Positions 1 through 52,382 of a stretch of DNA of 64,000 nt are shown here, one piece after another. This stretch comes from a virus, in the IMG/VR virus record IMGVR_UViG_3300044535_000374, positions 1 to 64,000 of that record. One strand, 5' to 3'. Under the pieces are notes generated by a model, which made no database searches, was not told the origin of the DNA, and saw nothing but the letters and a program-made list of their open reading frames with translations. The translations under genes were made by a program, and so were the position numbers. Within the stretch, counting starts at the first letter, position 1, and the number at the start of each line of letters is the position of its first letter.

Positions 1-3000
1 ACTCAATCTTTGATGCTTCTGTTACCTTTATAGTGTTTAATGTTTGAATGATTCCATCAATCTTGGCATCACTTCCGTTCATTTTAACAATCTGACTAAT
101 CATCTCATCCTTAGCTACATTTTTAACTCTAGACTTTAATTCGCCTTCTATTACACTTCTAGCTATTTGCTTTTGTTCTGGGCTAAGTTTTTGATAATCG
201 CCTTTCACAAACTCAGTTCTAACCTTTTTAAAAGCTTCTGGCCTGCTCATTGTTAAAAGAGCTGAATCTAACTTTGGCAATAATTGCTTTGTAAGTTCAT
301 TTTTAAACTCACCTCTATCTTTGGTTTCTTCAATTGATAATCCTGTAATACTTTGATTTATTTTGCTTCCTTCTTTAAAGTATCTATCAGTAATACCACT
401 TGCTTTTAATACCATATCTCTTGTATTCTTGCCATATCTTTCTTCAAATAAAGTCTTTTCAGAAGTCCCTGCTTCTGTTAAGAACATGGCAAATCCAGAT
501 AATGGGTTACTCTTGAAAGGCACACTTCCTGCTGCAGCTTCTAATCTTGCAGGAGATATACCTTCTGGTAATAATGGCATGTCTTTAGTAAGTTCTCCTG
601 CTTTTTGGAATAGCTTTGAAGATTGCTTTTTACCAACTTGAGCTCCTTCTAAATAATCTTTTGTAGCCTCTTCATACGGAACAACTTCTTCTTGTCTATA
701 TGGGTCTCTATTGAATTTATATTTAGCGATAGCAGAGTATAATGGGTTTCTTGAACCTACCTTTTCTAGATTGGCAAATTGTGTTAATGGGAACGCATCT
801 GCTACATTTACTGTAACCTCATAAGCATCCCTACTATTTAAAGTTTTACCTTCTAGGTATTGTCTTTCTGTAAGCCTTCTAGCTAATGAATGGATAGGTG
901 TTAAGAAGTCTGGTATCTTAACAGATACAAACTTTTCTTGTGATTCAACAAAGTATAATAAAACTCTGTTATCTCTATCAAACTCAGATAGTTTCATGTA
1001 GGCCTTTCTCTTCTTTTCTTTTAACTCGTCATCATCTCCAGCACCTAAAGCACTAAGAGTTAATAATGTAGCATAAGCAGCAAATTCCATAGAATATGCT
1101 AAAGCCTTTTTAGGGTTTGCTTTTGCTGATGAGAATACAGCTCTTTGAACCTGTATACCAGCATTTAAGTAAGGAACAATCTTGTTTATTTCTCCACCCC
1201 ATGTTCCTTTTCTATGGAAGTCAGCTGTGCCTCTAGCCATAGCGCCAGCTTCTATTTTAATATCTTCCATTTCCTGCTGGTTAGGCTCTCTATTATTATC
1301 TTTTTTAAACTCATTTATTTTGCTATCTCTAATAGATTTATACAAAGCCACTTTACTCATTTGCTCTGTGGTTTCTGTGATTCTTTTAGACCCCATCACA
1401 TATTGCTTAAGTCCTGGTACATTCCATTTCTCAATTACTTTTTCTAATGAGTTATCTTCCTTACCTAATAAACCTCTTTCAAAAGAAACCATACCTCCAT
1501 TATAGAAGTTAGTAGTAGCTCCATATTGCATAGCTTCTTGGAAATCTTTAGAGTTTCTCATTATATCTTTAGAAGCCATCAATGTCTTGGCAAAGAATAT
1601 AGGATAATCAATAAGTATAGGTAGCTTTCTTTCCTCTAATGTTGCAGTATAAGCAGATATAGTATCTGGTATAAGCTGAGCAATACCAAATACAGGATTT
1701 ATTCCTGTAGCAACTACTCTAAGTAAATTAGCTCCTGTTAACTTTCCTACAAAAGAAAGTGCACTCATTGATTTCACATTTCTGTTATACCATTGGTCAG
1801 CAAACCATTGAGGAACAATAAGGTCATATCTCTGACCATTAAAGTAAGTTTTAATATAATCTTCTCCTTCTTTTGCTTGCTCTTGTACTACTCTAAATTT
1901 ATTGCCATTACCATCAACTTCAATATCAACAGGAGCTACATAAGGCTTAATGCCCATTTCACCTGCTTTTTGCATTCCTTTATATGGCAATTGCTTTTGT
2001 CCACTAGGTAATTCTAATGCAGATTTTGCTTTACCTTCTTGTATTGCTTTAACCTTATCATCAATTACGTCAAATTTAACTGGCCCTTCTATTTCAATAG
2101 GAACTAATTTAGTACCAAGTCTAATTCCAGCTTCGTTAAACTTAGCTGGATTCTCAGAAACTAAATCATAGAATCTATTAGTAGCTCTATTTTCTGATAC
2201 TGAATACTCTGATGCATATGTCATAGCTCTCAATAAACCTTCATAGTCACTCATATTCAACTTCTCTGTACCACCAGCAAGTGTTCTCATTCTTAATATA
2301 GAATCCTGTCTGTAAGAAGCTGTCTTCTCAGATAATGACAATAATGGGTCTATCAATGCATCGCTAATATATCTAGCAGGCGCATAGAAAAATTTAACTA
2401 GATAGTCATATGTTTCTTGAGAAATCAATCCTGCATCTAGCCTATCTTTCATCATGCCATTAAAATGCTTGCTGTACTTTTCTGAGCTAGTCATTAATTT
2501 ATCAAAGGCATCTTCTCCTATTGATTCTCTTATCTCGTATAATAATGCTTTTGCCTGCGTAGCTGTTACGTTACCCATTGCAAACTCAACATCTAAGCTT
2601 TCTCCAATAAAATTTCCATCAACGTCAATCATGTTGTTATCAATAAGCTTTTTCTTACTCTTGTTATATTCTGGAGAACCAATCTCTGAATTTAACATAG
2701 TTTGATATGCTTGATTCATTTGCTCTTGAATAGATATAACTCTTTGATAACCAATCACCTGATTAAACAATTCATACTCGGTGAACTTAGCGCCATTAAT
2801 ATTGAATGTCTTTTTCTTAGACATATCACCATATATCTCTTTAACAGCAGCTTCCGCCTTTATTGTTGCAGTAGCTGATGCGCTATTCCTCGTAAGTAAA
2901 TATGCCTTAACTAATTGTCCTTGCTTCCCAATCTCTGCTAATCCTCTCAATACTCTATCTTGATTGTCTAACCAAGCTGTTCTTAATCTTGTATTGATTA

Positions 3001-6000
3001 CATTAAATAAAGAAGGCTTTGCTTTTTTAATTTCATTAAGCTTTCTATCTATGTCTGTCTTCTGGCCATTCATTGTTTCAATAGCAACATATCTACCAGT
3101 AGAAGTTTTAATCATTGTCTCTCCTGGCTCTGGCTTACCTGATGTGCCCTTTTCCCAAGAGTACTTTTTCTTTTCTGGGAGTCCTGATGGTTGCTGTTGT
3201 TCTTTTGGCATTCCAACCTCTCCTGTAGGGGGTACTATTCCAACCTCTGTAGATGGTTGTACTGGTTCAGCTTTTACTATTCCTGTTTCTTGCTGCGCTT
3301 CTTGAATTGGTGCTGTTTCTTTTGGTCTAGCATCTATTATCTTATCAAAATACTTTACAAGCTCCTTATTATAGCTAGCCTTTCTAAATAAATCAAGTAT
3401 CTTGTCTAATACTAATGATATCTTCTTAAATAATGTGTCAAACTGAGCATCAGTTATTTTATTTTCAATATAGTACTGACGGAATTGTTCTGCAAAGTAT
3501 TCCATAAAGTCTTCTGAAGCATTTGATTGAACAGTTGCTTCTGATACACCTCCTCCTTGTTTTTCTCTTGTAACCTTAAATGGTTTACCTAAAGCTTGCT
3601 CCTCTTCTAATGTAGTAGTTCCTTTTGCAAATCTTTCTGCTGAATATTTGAAGAACTCTACTCTTTCTTCTGGCGTTAGTATGTTAAAAAATCCCCAATG
3701 CCCAACCTCATGTATAAATGCAGATGGTTGTTTTGATTTTAATAAGTTTGTTGCAAATTGGTAGTAGTTTTGACTCTTTTCTTTTCCAGTAGAAATAAAA
3801 TTAAAAACATTCTCTGGTATGATATCATCAATCATACCGAATATTATTTCCTTTTCCTTATCCGTGTATTCACTATTAACTTCTACACTACGCTTAAGTT
3901 CTTCTTTAGTTGATTGATTTGCTCTATCTGTAAATAGACCATACATCCTTTCTACCGCATTAAGACTTGCTATAGTTTTTGATATATTAGCTTTACTTTT
4001 TGGAGTAGCTTTATACATGTTAACTATAAAGTTCCTTACCTGTTGTGCATCAATTTTACTCTTGTTCTGATTTATTAAATCATCAATACCTTTTCTTAAA
4101 GCACTAGCAGACCCCTTGAACTTGTTTTTATTTATTGAAAACAAATAATCTTTATATACATTAACAAGGTCTGGATTCTCTCTTATAAAATCTTGATTTA
4201 TTGTTATCATTTGAGAGCCTGGCGTATCGTCAAACCAAGATGGTTTTTCACCCATTTGGAACTGAGACTGAGTAGATGTATATTCAGCCCTCTGTGTTGA
4301 TATTGGTTTACCTGAAAGTATATCCTGCAATGCACCACCTAAAAAGTCCTGTAAAGACAAGTTTTGAACTTGCTCTGGAGTTAGTTTTCTTAAGTTAGGG
4401 AATATCTCTTGTAGGTATTTCCATACACCAACAAGCCATTCTTTAAACTGTGATTGCATAGCAGCATCAGCTATAGTTTCTCCCTTGTTCCCTATAAGCA
4501 TTGCTAATGCCTCTTTTCTAGCAAACACATTATCCCCTAGTCTAGCCTTAGCTGATTCAAATTCAGGCGTTCCTTCTACTAGCTTTAACCCCTGTGCAAA
4601 TAATGTAGGATTTGTATTCTCTATAAAATCTACCCATATGTGACCCATTTCGTGGATAGCTGTATTGTATGTTGCTTTCTCTGGATTTAAATATATATTA
4701 CCATCTTTTGTAACACCATAAATAACATCTCCATCTTTTAAATACTCCTTAACTCCTTCTGATGACAACACATCTTCAAATGATTGTTTATCTGTAAAGA
4801 ATGTTACATCAGGGAAAGATAAATTCAAGAATCCTATTAGCTTTGATAGGTTATCATTTGTAGCTAATGTTTTATTCTTAAATATAGCATTTGCTAATCC
4901 AGAAGGCAATGCTCTACTTACAGCCTCACTAGGTGTAATAGAACCCTCTTTAGCCACTACATCAGTTATTTTAGATACTACATTACCATAAGCTGTTGGC
5001 ATTACAGATGCGATATGTGCTGTATTTTCTACAACACCTAATCCTTGACCAGATAATGCGTATGGATAATTTTTATGCGTAGATGTTTGTACTGGCGCAT
5101 CTTTAGATACATCAATACCTACAAACCCAATAACATGTCTTGCAGGCACATTTTTGATTGATTCATCTCTTAATGGTTCTGTTATGTAACCTAGATGAAG
5201 CTTCTTTGCGCTTTCTTGAGGCAATGTATTTAATAAAGCCTTTACAACAGGGACAGTAGATTTTGTAACCTTTGGTTTTGCTGGCAATAAACCAACTTCG
5301 CCCATTGTTATTCTATCTGTAATAAGTGGTCTAGTATTAATATTAAGAGAACCTATGTTGTTAATAACGCTTTCAATATCTTTATTAGACTTTAAATACT
5401 CATTATATATAGTTTTATAACCATTTAATTTGTTGTTTAAAGAGGCAGATATATCCTTGCCTGCTTTTGTATTCTCATTTACAGTTTTCTGTGTTATATC
5501 TAACCTACTCTTTATATCTTGTACAAGCGCTTTGTATGCCGCTTTTTGGTTTGCCTTTGGAATAGATGCAACATTATCAGCAAGAACTCTAAATACAGCC
5601 TCATTGGATGTAATAGCGTCTACTCCCATTTTTACAACAGCAACAGGTATGTGATTCTGAGGTAACTTACCTTCAGCCCACAACTTATCAAACAGTTCTT
5701 TATTAGCTTGATAAATATTCTTTGCAGAATTAAGTGTATCAACAGCTGTTTTTTCATCTGTGTACGCCCATGCAAATTCAGTATTCCCTTCGCTATAATT
5801 AAATCCAATACCACCATTTAAATTATCTATTGTATTACCTGTTTCTGGGTTAACAATAGAACCAGTAGTCAATTCATCTGATATTGTAAGCATCATTGGA
5901 ATGCCGTTAAAATCAGTAATAGACAATACGTTTGGACTTTTAACAACACCCTCCCTTTGAGAAAGTGTACCAACATTTGCTTTAGATGTAGCATTAACGC

Positions 6001-8266
6001 TTGCATCTGCAGTAAATTCTACAGCTGCACCTCCAATGTCATTCATCTTATTTGTAATAGCTGATGTTTCTTTTTTATAAACACCTACATCCTGTTGACC
6101 TACTTGGAATTGCGCCTGGCCGCTGATAGGGCGATTGCTATCTTTTGCTTCATTGGTCGCTTGTTCTTGGACTGGTTGAGTTCCCTGATATTGGCTGATA
6201 CCGCCTTGTTCAGTGCTGATTTGCTCTTTCCTTGTGCTTTCTTTAATGGCATTTTCTTCTGAATTAAATATGTTTAAAATTTGTTCGTCTATTTGTTTTG
6301 CTTCTGCATTTGCTTTTTTCTTAAATGCATCATCTAATGTTTCTGCATTTGATATAATTTGGTTTCTTTGACCTATTAAATCAATAATATTAGCTGAACC
6401 ATCTATACTCATGCCAGTAGGAAGCTTATTCATCATACCTTTTGCGTAAGCAACCTGAGACTTCATTGCATTTGCTTGCTCTTCTGTTAGAATTCCAGCA
6501 CCTAAGTGCACGTCAATATTATTATTGATAAATCCTATATCATTCCTAGATACTATATCAACTAAATCTTTTGTTTTTAAAGGCTCATTTCTTTTAGCAA
6601 TTTCAAATGCACGACCAGTAACAATTTCTCCTGCGCTACCAAATGTTTCGCCAAGCATCTCCATTACTATGGCATTTGTGTCGTATATTTTACCTTTTTC
6701 TACCAATTGTCCTGCAGCTTCACCTGCACCTCCTAATGTAGATTGAACTCCTAATTCCGCAAATCCTCCTGCAACCTTTCTTCCAATAGATGGAGCTCCT
6801 GTTGTCATTATAGCTTTAGCGCTCTTTGAAACAAACTTACCAGCTATACCAGCAGATAGCATATCAAATAAAGCTACAGGCACCCCTTTTTCCCATCCAG
6901 CTTTTCTAGCCCTATCCATTAACTCTTCGTTAGCGAATGCATCTTTTAAGCTGTTAGCATTTGTAATATCAACACCTTCTTCTGAAAGTGTTTCCATTAT
7001 TTTTGATGAGTGTTCTAGATTTAATGATGTTAAACCAGAGCCAGCAATAAATCCTGTACTAGCTCCTGTTATTGTTCCAAATCCTGGGATTACAGAGCCT
7101 AATGCTGCACCTTCTGCTGCACCAGCTACCATTCTTGATGCTCCATGTTTATACATCGCAACTAAGCTTTCTAATGTAAGCTCAGCCATGATACCTATTG
7201 GATTCTTCATAAAGGTTTCAAAAGACATATTCTTTTGGAATTCCTCGTATGCTTTTGATTGCCTAGCCTCCTGTTGTAATCTGTTTACCTCTGCTAGTCT
7301 CTCTACTGGGATACCTGTGTTTTCTGATGTAACAGTAAGTATATCAGCACCTTCTGCGCTATATAAACCTCTTTCTGTAGCTCTTCCTACTATATCTTTA
7401 AAAGACTGAATAGTAAATGGATTGTCATACTCTATTTGAATCATTTTATTTGTAGCTTCTTTAGCTCCAAATGTTCCACTATTAAATAATTCAATACCAT
7501 TAGTATTACCTTCTTTACCCATTGCAGCACCAGCAGCAATATCAATATTAGAAGCTACTTTATCAAGTTTAGCTAATACTAAATCTTTTTCTGCCTGACT
7601 AGAATCTGGGTCTTGTAATGTGTTTATGTAATCGTTAAAGTCAGCTTTTTTACCATACGATAAAGAACGTAAGCCAGAAAATTGTTTTTGAGATAATTTA
7701 TCCTTTAAAGAAGACGCTTCATACTCTTCTTTTACAACGTTTGATTTAGAATAATACGCACCAGCATACTGGCTATTAATCCATGCATCTCTAGTTCTAT
7801 CATTCTCATTAATATCTGTGAAATTGCTAAGGAAATCATAGCTTTTTTCTACTCTTTGACTTAGTTGTTCTGGCTTATTTAATGAAGCTTGCTCACGTAA
7901 AAAATCTGATACAATAGGTTGTATCTCTGGCTTTTCTTGCTTTATCTTTTCTATAAAGCCATTTAAATAGCTAGTACCGCCTTTTACGGCATTGTTATAC
8001 GTCTCCTCTATAGCTAATTGTGATTGCTTAGCATCTGCAATAAGCTGCTCTTCAATCTTAGATGCATCTAAACCTTTTAAGGTTATTTCTTTTGGGGCTT
8101 TTGGAGATTTGTACTGACCTAGTTCTTTAAGTGTTATCGGCTTTTCTTCCTTTCTTTTCTCACCTTCTCCGCTAACGCCTGGTGCCATTTGTAGATACTC
8201 GTCACCGATTGATTGGTATTCTTCACTACTTGGGTCTAATGGACTAAAATTTTGTTCAAAATTCAT
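1..8266 (-). CDS. Giant polyvalent / internal virion protein with two zincin motifs, C-terminus cut by window edge
   Basis: One open frame runs from an ATG at 8266 to the window edge, at least 2755 residues with no stop. Two HExxH zinc-protease motifs are readable: HEMGH at residues 1205-1209 and HEVGH at 1519-1523. Around residues 330-470 there are Gly/Ala-rich stretches that could enter membranes. The last several hundred residues (near 2190, motif GINPVFGIAQ) resemble the LPD38-type domain of large polyvalent phage proteins. Such proteins are packaged and injected with DNA. It is last in the tail/internal protein operon, 35 bases after the preceding gene, with its own TAnnTTTG box at 8290-8283. 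The substrate of either zincin is unknown. Identification as a polyvalent protein is inference from motifs, size and position. Confidence 0.8.
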   Translation of the reverse strand, partial: MNFEQNFSPLDPSSEEYQSIGDEYLQMAPGVSGEGEKRKEEKPITLKELGQYKSPKAPKEITLKGLDASKIEEQLIADAKQSQLAIEETYNNAVKGGTSYLNGFIEKIKQEKPEIQPIVSDFLREQASLNKPEQLSQRVEKSYDFLSNFTDINENDRTRDAWINSQYAGAYYSKSNVVKEEYEASSLKDKLSQKQFSGLRSLSYGKKADFNDYINTLQDPDSSQAEKDLVLAKLDKVASNIDIAAGAAMGKEGNTNGIELFNSGTFGAKEATNKMIQIEYDNPFTIQSFKDIVGRATERGLYSAEGADILTVTSENTGIPVERLAEVNRLQQEARQSKAYEEFQKNMSFETFMKNPIGIMAELTLESLVAMYKHGASRMVAGAAEGAALGSVIPGFGTITGASTGFIAGSGLTSLNLEHSSKIMETLSEEGVDITNANSLKDAFANEELMDRARKAGWEKGVPVALFDMLSAGIAGKFVSKSAKAIMTTGAPSIGRKVAGGFAELGVQSTLGGAGEAAGQLVEKGKIYDTNAIVMEMLGETFGSAGEIVTGRAFEIAKRNEPLKTKDLVDIVSRNDIGFINNNIDVHLGAGILTEEQANAMKSQVAYAKGMMNKLPTGMSIDGSANIIDLIGQRNQIISNAETLDDAFKKKANAEAKQIDEQILNIFNSEENAIKESTRKEQISTEQGGISQYQGTQPVQEQATNEAKDSNRPISGQAQFQVGQQDVGVYKKETSAITNKMNDIGGAAVEFTADASVNATSKANVGTLSQREGVVKSPNVLSITDFNGIPMMLTISDELTTGSIVNPETGNTIDNLNGGIGFNYSEGNTEFAWAYTDEKTAVDTLNSAKNIYQANKELFDKLWAEGKLPQNHIPVAVVKMGVDAITSNEAVFRVLADNVASIPKANQKAAYKALVQDIKSRLDITQKTVNENTKAGKDISASLNNKLNGYKTIYNEYLKSNKDIESVINNIGSLNINTRPLITDRITMGEVGLLPAKPKVTKSTVPVVKALLNTLPQESAKKLHLGYITEPLRDESIKNVPARHVIGFVGIDVSKDAPVQTSTHKNYPYALSGQGLGVVENTAHIASVMPTAYGNVVSKITDVVAKEGSITPSEAVSRALPSGLANAIFKNKTLATNDNLSKLIGFLNLSFPDVTFFTDKQSFEDVLSSEGVKEYLKDGDVIYGVTKDGNIYLNPEKATYNTAIHEMGHIWVDFIENTNPTLFAQGLKLVEGTPEFESAKARLGDNVFARKEALAMLIGNKGETIADAAMQSQFKEWLVGVWKYLQEIFPNLRKLTPEQVQNLSLQDFLGGALQDILSGKPISTQRAEYTSTQSQFQMGEKPSWFDDTPGSQMITINQDFIRENPDLVNVYKDYLFSINKNKFKGSASALRKGIDDLINQNKSKIDAQQVRNFIVNMYKATPKSKANISKTIASLNAVERMYGLFTDRANQSTKEELKRSVEVNSEYTDKEKEIIFGMIDDIIPENVFNFISTGKEKSQNYYQFATNLLKSKQPSAFIHEVGHWGFFNILTPEERVEFFKYSAERFAKGTTTLEEEQALGKPFKVTREKQGGGVSEATVQSNASEDFMEYFAEQFRQYYIENKITDAQFDTLFKKISLVLDKILDLFRKASYNKELVKYFDKIIDARPKETAPIQEAQQETGIVKAEPVQPSTEVGIVPPTGEVGMPKEQQQPSGLPEKKKYSWEKGTSGKPEPGETMIKTSTGRYVAIETMNGQKTDIDRKLNEIKKAKPSLFNVINTRLRTAWLDNQDRVLRGLAEIGKQGQLVKAYLLTRNSASATATIKAEAAVKEIYGDMSKKKTFNINGAKFTEYELFNQVIGYQRVISIQEQMNQAYQTMLNSEIGSPEYNKSKKKLIDNNMIDVDGNFIGESLDVEFAMGNVTATQAKALLYEIRESIGEDAFDKLMTSSEKYSKHFNGMMKDRLDAGLISQETYDYLVKFFYAPARYISDALIDPLLSLSEKTASYRQDSILRMRTLAGGTEKLNMSDYEGLLRAMTYASEYSVSENRATNRFYDLVSENPAKFNEAGIRLGTKLVPIEIEGPVKFDVIDDKVKAIQEGKAKSALELPSGQKQLPYKGMQKAGEMGIKPYVAPVDIEVDGNGNKFRVVQEQAKEGEDYIKTYFNGQRYDLIVPQWFADQWYNRNVKSMSALSFVGKLTGANLLRVVATGINPVFGIAQLIPDTISAYTATLEERKLPILIDYPIFFAKTLMASKDIMRNSKDFQEAMQYGATTNFYNGGMVSFERGLLGKEDNSLEKVIEKWNVPGLKQYVMGSKRITETTEQMSKVALYKSIRDSKINEFKKDNNREPNQQEMEDIKIEAGAMARGTADFHRKGTWGGEINKIVPYLNAGIQVQRAVFSSAKANPKKALAYSMEFAAYATLLTLSALGAGDDDELKEKKRKAYMKLSEFDRDNRVLLYFVESQEKFVSVKIPDFLTPIHSLARRLTERQYLEGKTLNSRDAYEVTVNVADAFPLTQFANLEKVGSRNPLYSAIAKYKFNRDPYRQEEVVPYEEATKDYLEGAQVGKKQSSKLFQKAGELTKDMPLLPEGISPARLEAAAGSVPFKSNPLSGFAMFLTEAGTSEKTLFEERYGKNTRDMVLKASGITDRYFKEGSKINQSITGLSIEETKDRGEFKNELTKQLLPKLDSALLTMSRPEAFKKVRTEFVKGDYQKLSPEQKQIARSVIEGELKSRVKNVAKDEMISQIVKMNGSDAKIDGIIQTLNTIKVTEASKIE

Positions 8267-45499: not shown

Positions 45500-46099
45500 T
45501 TAAGCTTTTAATAGATTATAATATTCTTTAAAATGAGCTATTCTATCAGCAAGACCGATAGTGCCTCCGTTAACCCTTTTTGTAATTTTAGTTACCACAT
45601 CTTCTCCTGCACCTGTATCAGCTATTGCATTTAATCCGTTCTTACTCCAAAACCATGCAGCTGATAATAAAGGATATTTTGTAGCAACCAAATCAGGATT
45701 TGCTTCAATGTTATCTTCTACTGTTTTATCAAATGCTTGGTAGTTATTTTTACCTGTTAATTGGATATAACCTCTACCACGAAACTTAAACCCATCTCCA
45801 CTAGCCTGATTACCATTACCCATTCTGTTTGCGTACACAATATTAGCAATCTTTTCTGGCTTACGTTGATATTCTTGTGCGCTTTCTGGTGTAAAATACT
45901 TTTTGAAAATATTTGTTAATCCTTTTGCGCTGTAGTTTAAATTCTCTGTTGTTACTCTGAATCCACCACTTTCATGCCCTGTCTGAGCTAAGAAATGAGC
46001 TAGTCTTTGTGGCGTGTTTACGCCAAATTTACTTGATACTTCTGGTATCTGATTTATAACTGTATCTGGGATGTGACCCTTTAATTTCTCTAAATTCAT
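45500..46099 (-). CDS. GH19-family endolysin (chitinase/lysozyme fold)
   Basis: 199 residues. Cell-wall hydrolase of glycoside hydrolase family 19. Catalytic-type residues are Glu43 in FLAQTGHESGGF and Glu52 in TTENLNYSAKG; the signature GRGYIQLTGKNNY is at 108-120. There is no signal peptide and no separate binding domain, so export would need a holin. It is flanked by two small membrane proteins. All key motifs are intact. Confidence 0.92.
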   Translation of the reverse strand: MNLEKLKGHIPDTVINQIPEVSSKFGVNTPQRLAHFLAQTGHESGGFRVTTENLNYSAKGLTNIFKKYFTPESAQEYQRKPEKIANIVYANRMGNGNQASGDGFKFRGRGYIQLTGKNNYQAFDKTVEDNIEANPDLVATKYPLLSAAWFWSKNGLNAIADTGAGEDVVTKITKRVNGGTIGLADRIAHFKEYYNLLKA

Positions 46100-46344
46100 T
46101 ACTTATCTTTTATATTCTTGTTACCAAATACAGCCTCTACTCCTGTAATACCACACATAGTTAATGCTGTATACATAAGGCCATTAAATACTATAGGTTC
46201 TATTACAAATGCAACACCAACAGCTCCTGTCACTATATCGGTAAGTGCGTATAAAGCCATCAATACAAATGATACGAATCCTAATACTGCCTTTTGATTT
46301 ACGTCAGACTTATCGCTGAACATTCTAAGTAAAAACTCTTTCAT
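46099..46344 (-). CDS. Putative holin with two transmembrane helices
   Basis: 81 residues. Two membrane helices are visible (VLGFVSFVLMALYALTDIV and VFNGLMYTALTMCGITGV) with a basic C-terminus (NKNIKDK). Its ATG overlaps the endolysin frame boundary (one base). This is the best holin candidate by size and position. Confidence 0.65.
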   Translation of the reverse strand: MKEFLLRMFSDKSDVNQKAVLGFVSFVLMALYALTDIVTGAVGVAFVIEPIVFNGLMYTALTMCGITGVEAVFGNKNIKDK

Positions 46345-46346
46345 AA

Positions 46347-46949
46347 TTATTTAATTTTCCAATATATGGATGCGTTAACAAATGGTGTTTTATTGATATC
46401 AATTCCTGCTCCTACATTATATAGCTTGTCACACTTTGTGTTTAAAAGTAGATTTACTTGTACATTGTTTACAAAGTTTACCTTGTCAAACGAAGCTCCT
46501 ACACCCCAAAATAATTTGGTCTTAGGTAGTTCTTTAACAATAGTAGTCTCTTTAATAGTTCTTTGCTTCACATTAGCTGTGAACATTCTAGCTTCAATAG
46601 TATTCTTACTAATGGTATCCAATAGTACAACATATCCTAAGCTGTCAGGTAAACGTAAAGTATCCTTATATACGTTCTTAGCAAAATACATTTTAATAAT
46701 TTCTAATGTGTCCACGTTCATTGGAACCTGCACGAATATTGTTGTATCATGGTAGATATCTTTACCCTCTTTTGTGATTACCTTAGTCTTTATGATATCA
46801 ATTGTATCTATATCATGCTTGATAACCTCGTAGGGTTTCCCAGCAACATATTTGATATTGGGTTTCAATGGGTTATAAAGCCCATTCTTTAAAAAGCTGT
46901 AGGCAAAGGCAACTATCACCAAGACAGCTATGATTTTAATTATTTTCAT
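46347..46949 (-). CDS. Membrane-anchored periplasmic protein, spanin-like role possible
   Basis: 200 residues. An N-terminal transmembrane helix (IIAVLVIVAFAYSFL) is followed by a beta-rich periplasmic part (DTLRLPDSLGYVVLLDTIS) and a C-terminal domain LFWGVGASFDKVNF ending in SIYWKIK. The latter looks like an outer-membrane beta-strand signal. Similar sequences (DUF6808-like) occur in lysis regions of Bacteroidota phages. It could bridge the two membranes. A leaderless-type TAAATTTG box ends four bases before its ATG. Confidence 0.55.
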   Translation of the reverse strand: MKIIKIIAVLVIVAFAYSFLKNGLYNPLKPNIKYVAGKPYEVIKHDIDTIDIIKTKVITKEGKDIYHDTTIFVQVPMNVDTLEIIKMYFAKNVYKDTLRLPDSLGYVVLLDTISKNTIEARMFTANVKQRTIKETTIVKELPKTKLFWGVGASFDKVNFVNNVQVNLLLNTKCDKLYNVGAGIDINKTPFVNASIYWKIK

Positions 46950-46953
46950 ACTG

Positions 46954-46961
46954 CAAATTTA
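46954..46961 (-). promoter_or_regulatory. TAAATTTG box, leaderless, before the lysis-region gene
   Basis: Ends four bases before the ATG at 46949 and overlaps the stop codon of the beta-barrel gene. Confidence 0.5.
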
Positions 46962-48182
46962 CAAATTAAATTTTGACCCTATCTGTATTCCGATGGTATG
47001 AAGCGGCCCCATATATTTGACATTAGTTGCAAGTCTAAATCTTTTAGACAATGCTATGTCAAATGATGAGCCTAATATGTAGCTTAATTGACTCATAGAT
47101 GTCAAATCCTTTGATTTACTTGTATAACTCAGTGGGTTAGACATTAAAAAAACCTCTGGTGTTATAGTCAATCTTTTGCTGTAAACGTATGGCTTCATCC
47201 CAAATAACACTATAGAAGAAGTCCAGAATTGTTGTTTTACAGCCTCAAATGGGATAGATGTATTAATAATAGTCAAGGCATAGCCATAAATGTATGACTT
47301 ATGAGACATCACATATGATTTACCTAGTATATGTATGATGCCTCCATCATTATATGCCATTGTGTAAGAAGTTGTCCCTACGCCACATAAAGTCCCATTC
47401 TGAATATCCATCTTAGAATACCTTGTAGATAGGGCAAATTGTCTTAAATTTGAGAAGATTGTCAATGTAGAGCCGTAAGACACGTCTCCTGCCATAGATG
47501 CTCTAGAAACGCCTAAATTTGCCATTAAATTAAAGTCACCTTGAAACTGCTGAACCGCACTCAAATCAGACGAAAAAATCAATGGGGTTTGGCCTGCCTT
47601 TGCGGAAGACTTTTTCTTTTCCTCTTTCTTCTCTTCTTTCTTTTCTTCTTTTTTATCCTCGGATTTACTCTCAGATTTACTTTCAGAGGACTCAGAACTG
47701 CTTTCGCTAGAACTACCCTCACTCTGAGACGAACTGGAGCTAGAATTACCCTCACTTTGAGACGAAGCTGGTTGGCTAGAAGGTGCAGAAGATGGCGCAG
47801 GCGCAGGAGTAGGAGTTGGAACACTTACACTGCTAGCAGCACTCGCAGCGGCACTTGATGCTGCTGAACTTACTGCTGCTGAAACTGAATTTGTTACCGT
47901 TTGCTGTGTTAATTGTTGAGTCAGTTGTGTTACTGGACATGGCGCTGAATACTCTGCGTATACTTGACTTACCCAAGTCATTAAAGCTCCTGACCTTACA
48001 TCTTGAGCTGTTATATATCTAGACTTACCCATAAACACAATTGTAGTGCCTTGGATTGGCACCACAAATACTGTAACCTTCTTGCTACATGGGTCTATAA
48101 ATGTACTTGTAAGTATCTGAGCGTTCACGTTTACGTGAAACAAGAATAAAAGTGAACAGAGTAAGCTAGTTTTTAAATACAT
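46959..48182 (-). CDS. Exported outer-membrane beta-barrel-like protein with Ser/Glu/Lys linker
   Basis: 407 residues. Signal peptide ending HVNVNAQ; residues 23-90 form a small domain with two Cys; 90-200 is low complexity (Ala/Ser/Pro, then Ser/Glu, then Lys/Glu repeats KKEEKKEEKKEEKKK); residues 200-407 are alternating beta strands ending in a Phe-Asn-Leu outer-membrane signature. The charged linker may span the periplasm or bind partners. It overlaps the CsgG-like gene upstream by 17 bases, suggesting a joint function. It may act on host surface or egress. Confidence 0.65.
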   Translation of the reverse strand: MYLKTSLLCSLLFLFHVNVNAQILTSTFIDPCSKKVTVFVVPIQGTTIVFMGKSRYITAQDVRSGALMTWVSQVYAEYSAPCPVTQLTQQLTQQTVTNSVSAAVSSAASSAAASAASSVSVPTPTPAPAPSSAPSSQPASSQSEGNSSSSSSQSEGSSSESSSESSESKSESKSEDKKEEKKEEKKEEKKKSSAKAGQTPLIFSSDLSAVQQFQGDFNLMANLGVSRASMAGDVSYGSTLTIFSNLRQFALSTRYSKMDIQNGTLCGVGTTSYTMAYNDGGIIHILGKSYVMSHKSYIYGYALTIINTSIPFEAVKQQFWTSSIVLFGMKPYVYSKRLTITPEVFLMSNPLSYTSKSKDLTSMSQLSYILGSSFDIALSKRFRLATNVKYMGPLHTIGIQIGSKFNL

Positions 48183-48882
48183 TCTTTTTAATCATTCTTG
48201 ATAGGATGCGAGCACACGCAATATCTAGTGCTTTCTTTGTTGCAGTTCCTATCGTTGACTGATTAAATTTAACTTCACTAAGGTTATCGTCATTCAATAG
48301 GCTTGCCTCTCGTGTAGTTTTAGCTTCCCCCAATCCAGATGCAGCTATAATTTCTCCTGTCTGCGCATCTGTAAATCTTACTTGTAATCCTATTCTTGTG
48401 ACAACAGTCTCTTTAATGCCATCTTTTACTCTAATCTCTTCATCTTCTGAAACAGAATAATCATAGCACTCAATCTCAACAAAGTAATGAGCTAGTCTAA
48501 TCTTCCCTCTTCCGTCTAGCTTGTCTTGAGAAATTCCAGCTTGAGAGGCCTGAAATTGTTTGACCATTCTGTTCTTAATCTCCGTTTTATCTTCGGTGAA
48601 AGTGAAACGATTAAGATTTTCAAGGTATTCCATTGAGATGTTCGCAACTCCAAGACCAACCCTCTTTTCTTTAAGTTCAGGATACATCTCGTACATTTCG
48701 TCATTGATTCCGCATTTAAGTATTTGAATTGGTATAGTCGGCCCATCATAGTCCATGTATTGACTGATGTCAATCTTAGTCTCAAAGCTAGCCTTGTAAT
48801 TCTCTGTCTTAGTTGTCGCTACTTGAGAGATACCACTAACAGATAGCAACAACAATACAATAATATGAGTCAGTTTTTGCAT
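48166..48882 (-). CDS. CsgG-like outer-membrane lipoprotein/channel-type protein
   Basis: 238 residues from the ATG at 48882 (MQKLTHIIVLLLLSVSGISQ, a signal peptide); a start at 48933 would overlap the upstream gene. The central part RVGLGVANISMEYLENLNRF and the end GTATKKALDIACARILSRMI with GEIIAASGLGEAKTTRE match the CsgG family (curli secretion channel). CsgG forms multimeric pores in the outer membrane. In a phage this may insert a pore or surface assembly. It is coupled to the beta-barrel protein gene. Confidence 0.65.
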   Translation of the reverse strand: MQKLTHIIVLLLLSVSGISQVATTKTENYKASFETKIDISQYMDYDGPTIPIQILKCGINDEMYEMYPELKEKRVGLGVANISMEYLENLNRFTFTEDKTEIKNRMVKQFQASQAGISQDKLDGRGKIRLAHYFVEIECYDYSVSEDEEIRVKDGIKETVVTRIGLQVRFTDAQTGEIIAASGLGEAKTTREASLLNDDNLSEVKFNQSTIGTATKKALDIACARILSRMIKKNVFKN

Positions 48883-48899
48883 TTTTTGACTTATGTTTT

Positions 48900-49463
48900 T
48901 TACTTGTCTTTCAATAATCCACATTTCTGACACTCAAGTTCTCCGTCTCCGTCAGAATCTCCCCACTCATGCTCACATTGTCTGTGTGCCTGGTATTCAA
49001 ACTCTAACTTCTCCATCTCTTGTTCGTGTTCTTGTTGGTCTCTCTTAAGTTCAAAGTTTTGTCTGTTTTCTGTAACAGCTAAATCTCTAGCTGCAGCAGC
49101 TCCTTGAACAAATGCATCAGGGATGGTAGGGCCAAATGGCTTGTTAGTTTCTTTCATGTCATTTGTGTGAGACATAGAAACACCATCTTCTTCATCCATC
49201 TTCTGTACTAACATCTTGTCTTTGTCTGTGTCTGAGAACCAATAGTCTATAATCTTACCATAGCTACCAATAAAGGCACCCAATAATAACATTAATAACT
49301 CTTTCCATTCCCCTGCCATAGAGGCATTGTTAGATACTGCTACAAATATCCCTGCGATAATTAAAATAAACCCACCAAGAACAGCAGCGGTAATGTACCA
49401 TCTGCGTTCCATCATTGCGTTTAATAACTCTTTAAAGCCTGTTGGCTGTTTAGCGTTGTCCAT
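48900..49463 (-). CDS. Holin-like protein with C-terminal zinc ribbon
   Basis: 187 residues. Two transmembrane helices (WYITAAVLGGFILIIAGIFV and LLMLLLGAFIGSYGKIIDYWF) with a following SDTDKDKML motif, as in phage holins. The C-terminal 60 residues are a charged coiled coil and a CEHEWGDSDGDGELECQKCG zinc-ribbon-like end. A soluble metal-binding tail is unusual for a holin, so a regulatory role is also possible. Confidence 0.6.
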   Translation of the reverse strand: MDNAKQPTGFKELLNAMMERRWYITAAVLGGFILIIAGIFVAVSNNASMAGEWKELLMLLLGAFIGSYGKIIDYWFSDTDKDKMLVQKMDEEDGVSMSHTNDMKETNKPFGPTIPDAFVQGAAAARDLAVTENRQNFELKRDQQEHEQEMEKLEFEYQAHRQCEHEWGDSDGDGELECQKCGLLKDK

Positions 49464-49564
49464 ACGTTATATATTACTTCTTGATTTTGTTTTACTAATT
49501 TACTCTTTTTAACACCTGAGCGAATACTTCGTTTCGCTTTAGGCTTTGACGTCTTCTTTGCCAT
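49421..49564 (-). CDS. Tiny basic protein (47 aa)
   Basis: 47 residues beginning MAKKTSKPKAKRSIRSGVKK, then a less basic tail ending QQALKSY. Its end overlaps the following gene by 43 bases in another frame. Style matches the other very short Lys-rich proteins of this genome. Coding is probable but not certain. Confidence 0.45.
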   Translation of the reverse strand: MAKKTSKPKAKRSIRSGVKKSKLVKQNQEVIYNVWTTLNSQQALKSY

Positions 49565-49567
49565 ATA

Positions 49568-49867
49568 TTACCATTTAGGAGCCTCTTCCTTAAAATCATC
49601 GCCCTCTTTTTTCTTAGGAGTTGCAGCTGGCTTTGCAGGTTCTGACGCCTTTTCTTTAATGATAACAGTCTTACCACCTCCTGCAGCTTGTTGTTGCGTT
49701 TGATTGATATTAATGACTGGAGCCGCTGTTTGTGTTGGGGTTTCTTTCTCATCTCCTCCTGTTAATTTTGTTGTAATCCAACCACCCACTCCTAGAGTGA
49801 TTGTGCTAATGAATCCTATGATAACATTTTTCATAGAACTACCTGTGCTTTCTTGTTCTTCTGCCAT
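49568..49867 (-). CDS. Small membrane protein with Ala/Pro/Lys tail
   Basis: 99 residues. One transmembrane helix (VIIGFISTITLGVGGWITT) near residues 14-33 followed by a Thr/Gln/Pro/Ala/Lys-rich tail (EPAKPAATPKKKEG). No enzyme motif. Lies between the exported lipoprotein and the holin-like gene; may help lysis or membrane targeting. Confidence 0.6.
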   Translation of the reverse strand: MAEEQESTGSSMKNVIIGFISTITLGVGGWITTKLTGGDEKETPTQTAAPVININQTQQQAAGGGKTVIIKEKASEPAKPAATPKKKEGDDFKEEAPKW

Positions 49868-49873
49868 TGTATT

Positions 49874-50227
49874 TTATTTTATAATTATTGGGGTTCTAGT
49901 TTCTGAGCCATTTATATTCATCAAAATTAAGTCATATGTTCCACTTGATAATCCAGTTAGGTTATCCTGCTTTATTAATAAGCCATCTATTGAGCTTACC
50001 CCATAAGATTTGTATACTTTTCCACTCATATCCTTGATTGTAACATTATACTTGATAGATGGTTGTAGGTTAAAACTCATTGTAATTTGACCTAATGTAG
50101 GTACAGGAGACACATTAACATACCCCTGTTTTTCAGGTGTTTTAGCTTGTTGCTCTGGATAATATTGTATTTTTTTGCACGATACTACAACCAAAGCCAA
50201 GCACATGATGATACTGATTCTTTTCAT
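49874..50227 (-). CDS. Lipoprotein with type 9 secretion sorting-domain-like fold
   Basis: 117 residues. Lipoprotein signal (MKRISIIMCLALVVVSC). The remaining 90 residues, VSPVPTLGQITMSFNLQPS then KDMSGKVYKSYG and TGLSSGTYDLILMNINGSE, follow the pattern of the type A C-terminal sorting domain (NPxxGxxxIxF ... G.xVxxx ... GxYxxxI). Normally this domain ends large surface proteins; here it stands alone as a lipoprotein. It could bind the secretion machinery or be a surface adhesin. The ATG overlaps the cohesin-like gene by one base. Confidence 0.6.
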   Translation of the reverse strand: MKRISIIMCLALVVVSCKKIQYYPEQQAKTPEKQGYVNVSPVPTLGQITMSFNLQPSIKYNVTIKDMSGKVYKSYGVSSIDGLLIKQDNLTGLSSGTYDLILMNINGSETRTPIIIK

Positions 50228-51873
50228 TATTTAAAATTATTTATACCGATTAAACGAATCTGTGCAGTGTTTAACTTAATCCCAACTTGATTACCTCTGT
50301 TATCAGACGCATCCATGTTATCTGTTACCCATATATGTGTATTTAGGTCAGTTCCAGGAGCCAATGATTTAAATCTAATCGTGAAAGGAGTGATATTACC
50401 AGTAATACCCTCTTTCAATGTTTTATCTATTCCACCAAACTTAACATAGCCATTATCGTTTGTATAGAAGTTTAACCATGATGGGTTTGTATTAGACTTT
50501 ATCTCTTGCAACTGAATTTTAGTTGCATCATAAGAAAACTCAAACTGAAGCCCACATATGCTTAACCCATCTGTGTTTATACTTACAGGGATAGATATAT
50601 TGTCAGATTCAACTACAGCATTTTCTAAACTAACAGATACTGCCTTTTTTGCAATTGGAGTATTTACCAATGAGAATGATTGTATTGTCCCATCTGTGGC
50701 AACCACCTGTGAGCTATGGCTTCTATTAATATCACCTGCAATTAGGTAGTTTAAATCTAATACTTGATTGGTAGTAGTAGTACGGAAATAGATAAAATTC
50801 TGAACTGGTAAAGTATCTTTACTAAAGTCAGCTCTTTTATACGTGTATACATTAGGAACCATTGTCAGTGTGTTAGCCACATGAGCTAATATCAAGTATG
50901 GGTCGGCAGCATCAAAAGACCCATTATAGTTAGCATCAGCAGCTAGCCAAGCAGCACCTGTTTTTAGGTTAGTTTTATTAAAAGTACCATTTAGGTTAAC
51001 AGAACCAAACTCATTTAAGGCGGCTGTAGCATCTGATACCGTAATAGCATTTTTAGCTATACTAGCGATACTATCTATACCAACTGATACTTTGTATGTT
51101 CTATTTGATGCAAGCTCCGTAGAAGCTTTAAAAACACCGTTTACATCAGGGTATAATAAAGTAGATATTCCTGAAGCGGAGTCGGTAAACTTGATATTAG
51201 TCTGAACAGAAGGACTTTTATATATATTACCAGTAACCAAAGTATTAGCATTAGCGTCTAGTGTTATGAACGTGCTTTTAGGTAGAGGCATATACGTATT
51301 AATATAAGCACCATCTGATTTCCAGCCAGATACAAAGTTCATATACAAACTATCATAAGCTGTTCCAGCTGTAGTTGCATTTACTCTAATACGTATCCTG
51401 ATATATTTCCCATTACGTAGATTGCTATTTGAAGTAACTGTAGTATAGATTCTCTGGATAGCATTATTGCTAGTTGCTGAATACGTATAGTTAGCATAGT
51501 TATAGTTCTGTGAACCATTTGTTGTTGTGTTTTGAGCTGTTCTTTGATAGGTAAAGCCTGGATGGAAGTTATTCTGAATACTCATTGTAGCACCTGTAGG
51601 CATAGCACTGCTGTCTCCACTAAAACTAGTTACACCTAATATTGTAAATGTTCTATAGTTATACTGAAAGTCAAAGTATAGCGTTCTGGTAGAAGATAGT
51701 TCCTCTTTATACATAACCACCATATCAACAGTGTCCCCCTTTAATATAGACGTGTCCTTTATATTCTTGGTTATATTAGACTTTTCTAAATATATTGTAG
51801 GAATCTGCGCATTTGTCACAAATATTCCAAAAATAGTGACAAGACTAAGGATTAATTTTCTCAATGAGTTCAT
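50227..51873 (-). CDS. Exported cohesin/dockerin-like protein
   Basis: 548 residues with signal peptide (LVTIFGIFVTNAQ). Residues about 27-200 and 410-540 read as cohesin-like beta sandwiches (GLQFEFSYDATKIQLQEI). Residues 276-335 are dockerin-like, with the Ca2+ loop AADANYNGSFDAADPYLIL and a partner stretch ITVSDATAALNEFG. Such modules form tight protein pairs on cell surfaces. It overlaps the upstream secreted gene by 29 bases and precedes the sorting-domain lipoprotein. Confidence 0.65.
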   Translation of the reverse strand: MNSLRKLILSLVTIFGIFVTNAQIPTIYLEKSNITKNIKDTSILKGDTVDMVVMYKEELSSTRTLYFDFQYNYRTFTILGVTSFSGDSSAMPTGATMSIQNNFHPGFTYQRTAQNTTTNGSQNYNYANYTYSATSNNAIQRIYTTVTSNSNLRNGKYIRIRIRVNATTAGTAYDSLYMNFVSGWKSDGAYINTYMPLPKSTFITLDANANTLVTGNIYKSPSVQTNIKFTDSASGISTLLYPDVNGVFKASTELASNRTYKVSVGIDSIASIAKNAITVSDATAALNEFGSVNLNGTFNKTNLKTGAAWLAADANYNGSFDAADPYLILAHVANTLTMVPNVYTYKRADFSKDTLPVQNFIYFRTTTTNQVLDLNYLIAGDINRSHSSQVVATDGTIQSFSLVNTPIAKKAVSVSLENAVVESDNISIPVSINTDGLSICGLQFEFSYDATKIQLQEIKSNTNPSWLNFYTNDNGYVKFGGIDKTLKEGITGNITPFTIRFKSLAPGTDLNTHIWVTDNMDASDNRGNQVGIKLNTAQIRLIGINNFK

Positions 51874-52309
51874 AGCAAGCCTTTTTGATTGCAGTTGTTA
51901 AATTTTGTTGATTGAACTTGCCGTCTGTTCCGACAAGTATTGTTGATGTTGACACCTCAGATGCGCTACCTTCTACCAAGATTGGCTTGCTTTTACTTCC
52001 GTCTTTGGAAATATAACCCTTGATTCTTATCACGACATCTGTATTGTCTTTATGGAATACTGATAGATTGCTTTTAGTCTTCACTACATCCATATAAATC
52101 AACTCGGCAAAGATAATATTTTTAGATTTTGGGTTAATTGAGTATCCTTTCTCTTGGATTATCTCTTCAATGATATTAGCTACACCAAATTCTATCTTTC
52201 TATTACCTACCAAATCACCTAATTTAATGCTGTTTTGGACAGATATAGTCACATCTTGAGCCATACTAGATGTGCTCAATATTAACAATAAATATAATAA
52301 GTACTTCAT
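51845..52309 (-). CDS. Exported protein with weak CsgG-like features
   Basis: 154 residues. Signal peptide (LLYLLLILSTSSMAQ). It has the segment IEFGVANIIEEIIQEKGYSI and the end FNQQNLTTAIKKACYELIEKI, the latter like the C-terminal helix of the CsgG-like gene at 48.2 kb. It heads the exported-protein unit. A TACCTTTG box ends four bases before the ATG, so its mRNA is predicted to be leaderless. Confidence 0.6.
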   Translation of the reverse strand: MKYLLYLLLILSTSSMAQDVTISVQNSIKLGDLVGNRKIEFGVANIIEEIIQEKGYSINPKSKNIIFAELIYMDVVKTKSNLSVFHKDNTDVVIRIKGYISKDGSKSKPILVEGSASEVSTSTILVGTDGKFNQQNLTTAIKKACYELIEKINP

Positions 52310-52313
52310 GATG

Positions 52314-52321
52314 CAAAGGTA
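52314..52321 (-). promoter_or_regulatory. TACCTTTG box, leaderless, before the exported-protein unit
   Basis: Ends four bases before the ATG at 52309. The strong terminator at 52334-52353 is 12 bases upstream. Confidence 0.6.
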
Positions 52322-52333
52322 CTAAAATAAAAA

Positions 52334-52353
52334 AGCCCTGTAGAAACAGGGCT
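52334..52353 (-). terminator. Terminator, second identical copy
   Basis: AGCCCTGT (52334-52341), loop AGAA, ACAGGGCT (52346-52353), T-run on the minus strand. Same 28-base sequence as at 17401-17428. Confidence 0.88.
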
Positions 52354-52382
52354 CGGAAATAACCATATGTATGTCAGTCGTA

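Follow-up and report, generated by a model that had tools for sequence, protein, structure and literature searches.

An ordered module of exported phage proteins that points to a virus-specific rebuilding of the infected-cell surface

In the window, a stretch of 64,000 nucleotides comprising bases 1-64000 of the 67,211-base virus record IMGVR_UViG_3300044535_000374, we analyzed a minus-strand operon encoding four signal-peptide proteins and one lipoprotein. These genes belong to a module that is found in hundreds of viruses of flavobacteria-like aquatic bacteria and includes sugar-binding proteins with a predicted location at the cell surface; it suggests a virus-specific means of rebuilding the infected cell's surface. 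As to its purpose, we tentatively favor a reading in which lectin- or adhesin-like phage proteins, displayed on the infected cell at a late stage, reduce the re-adsorption of phage. The core of the module consists of two probably periplasmic CsgG/PelC-fold proteins, a 12-strand outer-membrane barrel on a flexible tether and small proteins of the inner membrane, to which are added between one and three exported proteins of variable make-up with cohesin, C-type-lectin or PA14 domains. In the window, its components are the following:

51845-52309, minus strand: sp154, encoded by the operon's first gene, a small exported CsgG-fold-like protein (profile comparison; signal peptide MKYLLYLLLILSTSSMAQ)
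50227-51873, minus strand: coh548, exported cohesin-type surface protein with a dockerin-like Ca-loop motif (invariant GD..) (Pfam; family alignment)
50287-50604, minus strand: cohesin domain of coh548, residues 424-529 (Pfam)
49874-50227, minus strand: lipo117, candidate outer-membrane lipoprotein with a fold like the C-terminal domain of type 9 secretion system (T9SS) cargo (lipobox; sub-threshold Por_Secre_tail match)
49568-49867, minus strand: tm99, small protein with a single transmembrane (TM) segment and a Lys/Pro-rich tail (in 74/81 loci, always upstream of the CsgG-like gene)
48900-49463, minus strand: tm187, two-TM protein (24-sequence alignment; 488 IMG/VR loci)
48166-48882, minus strand: csgg238, exported CsgG/PelC-fold protein, the most conserved part of the module (AlphaFold, Foldseek, VIA, IMG/VR scan)
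46959-48182, minus strand: bar407, exported protein with a small N-terminal domain, a long tether and a C-terminal barrel (AlphaFold; family linker lengths)
46965-47582, minus strand: 12-stranded outer-membrane beta-barrel of bar407, residues 201-406 (AlphaFold; amphipathic, low-charge strands)

The window derives from a podovirus-like phage of Bacteroidota. This assignment rests on the terminase, which shares 28-33% identity with the enzymes of the Cellulophaga phages phi46:3 and phi18:3, of the Flavobacterium elemo phages and of related records.

Export signals and distribution of the module

A preliminary description of the window had proposed that these proteins, with four signal peptides and one lipobox among them, are exported as a set to the host envelope, and this proposal holds both in the window and across the families. 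All of the open reading frames (ORFs) it named are present on the minus strand, with N-terminal signal peptides on 51845-52309, 50227-51873, 48166-48882 (ATG at 48882) and 46959-48182 and a lipobox on 49874-50227. As called with a crude predictor of our own, export starts are kept in 235/246 CsgG-like, 179/183 cohesin-type, 152/166 barrel and 176/188 C-terminal-domain proteins. In 164 inspected loci, the share of exported ORFs is ~0.75 near the CsgG-like gene and falls to 0.02-0.06 at 6-9 kb downstream, a peak that indicates clustering beyond chance. The inventory given in the preliminary description was incomplete, as it omitted the membrane proteins at 49568-49867 and 48900-49463, the lysis genes down to 45031 and the wide conservation of the set.

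When used as a query in IMG/VR, csgg238 returned 526 loci on contigs of up to 287 kb, 80 of which were kept (75-96% identity). Scans with tm187, which together with csgg238 makes up the best-conserved pair of module proteins, and with the CsgG-like homologue of immuto, a cultured module-bearing phage on Flavobacterium sp. LMO8 that makes tests possible, returned 488 and 113 loci, respectively. The module is co-directional and ordered in the 164 inspected loci, which come from phages of ~46 to 308 kb with unrelated terminases. In clade 1, the near-invariant order is sp154, one or two cohesin-type (coh) genes, one or two sorting-domain lipoproteins, tm99, tm187, the holin-like gene hol81, the CsgG-like gene and the barrel; the window departs from this order in that hol81 adjoins the endolysin. 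In clade 2, a coh gene with a fused sorting domain is followed by tm99, the CsgG-like gene, in some cases tm187, the barrel, a small CsgG-like paralogue and a lectin, and often then by hol81 and an endolysin. Pairwise orders are correspondingly regular, with coh before the lipoprotein in 62/62, the lipoprotein before tm99 in 67/67, tm187 before the CsgG-like gene in 55/55 and the CsgG-like gene before the barrel in 72/79 cases.

The CsgG-like gene is better conserved than the window phage's own terminase: the protein is present in 15/15 phage records at 55-100% identity, whereas the terminase is recognizable in only 1 of the 14 other records, where it is 55% identical as against 95% for the CsgG-like protein. 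Within clade 1, CsgG-like proteins are 74-95% identical and cohesin proteins 18-93%, a contrast in sequence between a constrained scaffold and a variable surface component. The CsgG-like gene has a ratio of nonsynonymous to synonymous substitution rates (dN/dS) of 0.04-0.10, with dS large to saturated in most comparisons at 87-95% protein identity. Because dS is near saturation, the high identity does not stem from recent transfer, and horizontal transfer need not be invoked as its source. The cohesin, lipoprotein and barrel genes evolve faster than the CsgG-like gene, at dN/dS values still below 1.

No full-length CsgG-like homologue was found in ~298 further genomes of the Flavobacterium genus group and 394 Bacteroidota genomes sampled, and an origin in the host was rejected on this ground. 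Matches in bacterial bins comprise a 12.6-kb and a 254-kb contig with the module, possibly phage themselves, and one chromosome-like contig of Ignavibacteriales. Judged by these genomes, the module appears to be phage-specific and practically absent from bacteria. In an Ignavibacteriales metagenome-assembled genome (L089:9977-11280), a tandem CsgG-like pair, one member a lipoprotein, precedes genes for an 825-aa protein and a CHASE2-cyclase-like protein; these two genes may be cellular relatives of the phage pair.

A CsgG-like pair and a tethered barrel

CsgG-like channel features had been noted in 48166-48882 and, weakly, in 51845-52309. For the former, structure comparison upholds the fold and not the CsgG-type pore. 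The AlphaFold model of csgg238 (predicted local distance difference test, pLDDT, 74) is most similar to CsgG (Foldseek 4uv2, E 1.4e-6; VIA Z 11.7, root-mean-square deviation 4.4, 171 residues), followed by PelC, FlgT and LptE-type folds. By sequence, Pfam assigns csgg238 to none of its families up to an E-value of 1, and a search of PDB sequences with the family profile gives no match up to an E-value of 10. A lipobox occurs in 1/80 CsgG-like members, such that the lipid anchor of the CsgG channel is missing in the other 79. The two hairpin regions also look unsuited to a membrane: hairpin 1 is of CsgG-like length but carries an acidic run, S-E-D-E-E, with invariant D147 and E148, while hairpin region 2 spans ~30 residues, as opposed to 38 in CsgG, and is modeled as a strand and a helix. 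Because the strands of E. coli CsgG hold charges too, these charges argue against a pore without proving the point. Neither Pfam nor PHROGs recognized CsgE, CsgF or curlin genes in the cassette, and a curli-type pore was dropped as the leading explanation, given that the lipid anchor, the family match and the curli partners are all missing. Taking together the missing lipobox, the acidic hairpin 1 and the short hairpin region 2, we read csgg238 as probably a CsgG/PelC-type scaffold in the periplasm.

The weaker likeness in 51845-52309 is supported. Profile comparison of sp154 with csgg238 gives 91% probability over 41 columns with a common K-F-N-Q...KKA motif, and the retrained family profiles merge, each matching members of the other. 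The small protein is thus likely a paralogue of csgg238.

The beta-barrel with a long charged linker that had been described for bar407 is likewise recovered, with 12 strands and pLDDT 83-91 across most of the barrel; a helix drawn by the pore falls in a low-confidence region. The N-terminal domain holds invariant Cys32 and Cys82, and the tether, chiefly Ser, Ala, Lys and Glu, is 99-234 residues long across the family. Structural matches of the barrel are NalP (VIA Z 20.8), KdgM (17.8) and FapF (16.7) at 7-13% identity, by which the fold is clear and the specific function is not. Like FapF-related channels and NalP-type translocators, bar407 combines a C-terminal 12-strand barrel with an N-terminal soluble part (VIA Z 16.7-20.8); unlike them, it has the long tether, and at 7-8% identity to these proteins, fold alone is no proof of an amyloid or autotransport function. 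The 12-strand barrel that it shares with FapF is generic to several barrel families, and Pfam recognized no Fap genes in the cassette. We consider bar407, rather than the CsgG-like protein, to be the channel candidate of the module. Structure searches, which might have failed for every family call of the preliminary description, thus matched both the CsgG fold and the 12-strand barrel.

Surface proteins and a split sorting domain

The cohesin call in 50227-51873 is borne out by a Pfam Cohesin match (PF00963, 3.1e-7, 31.1 bits against a cut-off of 24.1), and the coh548 profile gives weak matches to cohesins and one dockerin among PDB sequences. Across 76 exported coh-family proteins, Pfam recognizes Lectin_C (34), Cohesin (20), T9SS sorting (19), ConA-like (7) and PA14 (7) domains, a repertoire in support of the surface display that had been raised for the cassette. 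Diversification of the lectins by a retroelement was considered and rejected, as no reverse transcriptase (RVT_1) was recognized in 17 records, several of which are fragments.

According to Pfam, coh548 itself is without a sorting domain. In lipo117, the lipobox Cys17 is invariant in the family, and the sorting-domain likeness claimed for this lipoprotein is sub-threshold when taken alone (Por_Secre_tail 1.8e-4, 22.1 bits, under the cut-off of 27). It gains from the fused relatives in clade 2, which exceed the cut-off (e.g., L122 with 38.1 bits). In clade 2, the sorting domain ends the cohesin protein, whereas in clade 1, a small sorting-domain-like lipoprotein follows a cohesin protein that lacks the domain. 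The two states are almost mutually exclusive, 69 loci having the fused and 62 the separate form; in the 9 loci scored as both, the second match is merely 56-75 aa long. A lipobox is present in 102/105 separate sorting-domain proteins, and copy numbers of coh and lipoprotein genes agree in scorable loci (one of each in 25, two of each in 24), while 5 loci have no lipoprotein. Because they are fused in one lineage and adjacent in the other, a Rosetta-stone link, the two proteins can be expected to act together, which argues for the pair being one functional unit.

Possible functions

In the reading that we tentatively favor, variable phage-encoded lectin and cohesin proteins would be placed on the surface of an infected flavobacterium-type cell. 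The csgg238 and sp154 proteins would form a ring or scaffold in the periplasm beneath the barrel, and the small inner-membrane proteins would link this assembly to the inner membrane. The cohesin and lectin proteins would become surface-exposed through the host T9SS where the sorting domain is fused, or would be anchored by the sorting-domain lipoprotein where it is separate. Such a coating would block re-adsorption of phage to the infected cell and its debris, a form of superinfection exclusion if the term is taken broadly. The usual view is that phages act on the host envelope through one or two small proteins, and the conservation of a phage-restricted, multi-gene module on several hundred contigs with unrelated terminases implies a strong general benefit of surface rebuilding. 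Surface display, if true, would also put a viral use of the T9SS within reach of tests and make the module a source of phage lectins.

Several observations weigh against exclusion by surface display. The loci counted here are contigs, partly from the same populations, and are not independent events; the Por_Secre_tail score of lipo117 is below its cut-off; and both ring formation and use of the T9SS are steps that we infer. Exclusion systems are often expressed early, whereas the window operon runs into lysis genes. Finally, the module lies near holin-like and endolysin genes, with an endolysin close by in 72/164 loci (median 3.7 kb), which fits lysis equally well. A stronger form of the proposal, that the tethered barrel and the CsgG/PelC-like pair constitute a dedicated phage outer-membrane machine that works with the host T9SS to display viral lectins, would define a viral category undescribed before and is somewhat doubtful.

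Because of this proximity and the shared operon, the main rival is lysis or egress, which we judge unlikely. Here, the tethered barrel, the CsgG/PelC-like ring and the inner-membrane proteins would breach or weaken the outer membrane once holin and endolysin have acted, replacing or aiding a spanin, and might account for how Bacteroidota phages deal with the outer membrane, a step about which little is known. The relevant genes downstream of the barrel are:

46347-46949, minus strand: periplasmic protein with an N-terminal TM segment, between the barrel and the lysis genes, spanin-like by position alone
46099-46344, minus strand: hol81, two-TM holin-like protein (74/81 loci, mostly within the module or adjoining an endolysin)
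45500-46099, minus strand: GH19-type endolysin (PHROG 181 endolysin, 5.3e-73)

In the window, the endolysin and the two-TM holin-like gene share one tight operon with the module, and in many clade-2 loci, the barrel, sp154, hol81 and endolysin genes are contiguous. The genes for tm187, hol81 and an endolysin co-occur even without a CsgG-like gene, and a lysis-timing role has been suggested for the unrelated CsgGF of phage Melnitz (PMC9004378). However, lysis leaves no evident use for large, variable lectin and cohesin proteins with sorting domains, and separate coiled-coil TM proteins, potential spanins, lie near some endolysins. In immuto, moreover, the module (11.6-16.4 kb) adjoins replication genes ~28 kb from the holin and GH19 endolysin, a point softened by another gene annotated as endolysin ~6 kb from the module.

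A role in adhesion or resource capture is distinctly improbable. Displayed lectins, an exported nuclease, a lipase and an occasional TonB-dependent receptor would retain particles, neighboring cells or extracellular nucleic acid to the benefit of phage yield or spread. The lectin, PA14 and ConA-like domains of the coh family fit this idea, as do the exported Endonuclease_NS and TonB-dependent receptor genes that adjoin some modules, and "sibling capture" has been suggested for pelagimyophage curli genes (PMC7029224). Against it, the accessory genes are inconstant, with the nuclease in only 36/164 loci, and no amyloid subunit was recognized. That the proteins are virion parts, such as decoration lectins, that just look exported is very improbable indeed: phage particles can hold lectin and Ig-like domains, and the upstream neighbors in the window are tail-fiber-like by inspection, but almost every member of the families retains a canonical signal peptide or lipobox, and no capsid or tail would plausibly include an outer-membrane barrel.

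Relation to known systems

The module extends phage-encoded modification of the envelope, which is itself already known. CsgG/CsgF operons have been reported in pelagimyophages (PMC7029224) and methylophage Melnitz (PMC9004378), with uptake, sibling capture or lysis timing suggested as roles, and a marine survey reported csgG to be abundant among phage genes (PMC7003362). As in these phages, the module encodes an exported CsgG-fold protein in a small envelope operon that the host lacks. The pelagimyophage and Melnitz genes, however, are true homologues of CsgG and CsgF with a curli pore, whereas the module has no Pfam CsgG match, lipid anchor or recognized CsgF, and instead has a pair of paralogues, a barrel, inner-membrane proteins and surface lectins, in phages of Bacteroidota. 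Cryophage encodes T9SS cargo (PMC7468147) and resembles the module in having proteins with a T9SS type A sorting domain, one of them with PA14. Its cargo consists of single variable enzymes or PA14 proteins. In the module described here, by contrast, the genes are ordered, and the sorting domain, either fused or carried by a separate lipoprotein, is coupled to a conserved scaffold. The open-licence literature searched yielded no account of this gene combination, in agreement with the preliminary description, which knew of no such phage system.

Surface exclusion of the TraT/Llp type relies on envelope lipoproteins of mobile elements that are proposed to limit second entry. These are single lipoproteins, as opposed to the multi-gene module described here, and the similarity of TraT (9fsm) to csgg238 (Z 6.4) is too weak and was not used.

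Operon layout and neighboring genes

From 52309 to 45031 on the minus strand, 12 listed genes follow in series with gaps of -29 to +17 nt and a single gap of 104 nt, and the operon continues from the exported proteins into the holin-like and endolysin genes. Three further features accompany it:

52333-52354, minus strand: intrinsic-terminator-like hairpin (9-bp stem and T run) between the operon and the upstream gene
52314-52321, minus strand: TACCTTTG, which fits the motif TAnnTTTG, 4 nt 5' of the first ATG
49421-49564, minus strand: basic small ORF of 47 codons at the 104-nt gap, possibly by chance (translation MAKKTSKPKAKRSIRSGVKKSKLVKQNQEVIYNVWTTLNSQQALKSY*)

TAnnTTTG is the -7 promoter motif of Bacteroidota. 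The terminator-like hairpin and TACCTTTG directly before the first gene make it likely that the operon is a transcription unit of its own. The motif is also found 5' of the first gene in the nearest relatives (L006, L008, L010 and L012), and in just 5/39 loci overall, where start sites are uncurated. In a scan for sigma-70 promoters, matches were no more frequent than in shuffles.

An alignment of 24 tm187 sequences contains an invariant region, GAFIGSYGKI.DY..SD.DKDKMLVQK, and a C-terminal zinc-ribbon-like motif, C.H.W.D.D.DG..EC..CG. In three loci (L193, L234 and L235), tm187, hol81 and a GH19 endolysin occur together and the CsgG-like gene is missing from the fetched flank; such co-occurrence suggests a possible lysis function for tm187, with its zinc-ribbon-like tail. 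The 46347-46949 protein is encoded next to holin-like and endolysin genes in 21 loci. The window copy of hol81 has no match in Pfam or PHROG, and we call it holin-like, its role being putative. Among 50,697 isolate phage records, none carries tm187 or the 46347-46949 protein, and none carries the barrel N-terminal domain, a weak negative in the latter case, as the query joined the window domain to the signal peptide of a relative.

Several other genes recur near the module. Endonuclease_NS, mostly with a signal peptide, lies within ~8 kb in the 36 loci mentioned above (e.g., L053:15468-16109 and L086:6139-6714) and might target DNA that is entering the cell or is extracellular. TonB-dependent receptor-like proteins, complete at 827 aa and bearing a signal peptide, lie close to the module at L032:10684-13167, L036:4168-6651, L041:10680-13163, L044:10688-13171 and L047:10680-13163, and a partial relative (L065:9448-11827) has Plug (1.6e-7) and outer-membrane barrel (9e-25) domains. 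Also adjoining the module are a recurrent Trp/Gly-rich secreted protein (L019:7149-7982 and relatives), a recurrent lipoprotein with a Gly-Phe-Arg tail (L059:9294-9596 and relatives) and a recurrent 56-aa Thr/Asp-rich lipoprotein (L063:9936-10106). At the far end of the window (2-8266, minus strand), a single reading frame, open over at least 2755 aa, continues past the window boundary and resembles the gene of a giant internal virion protein.

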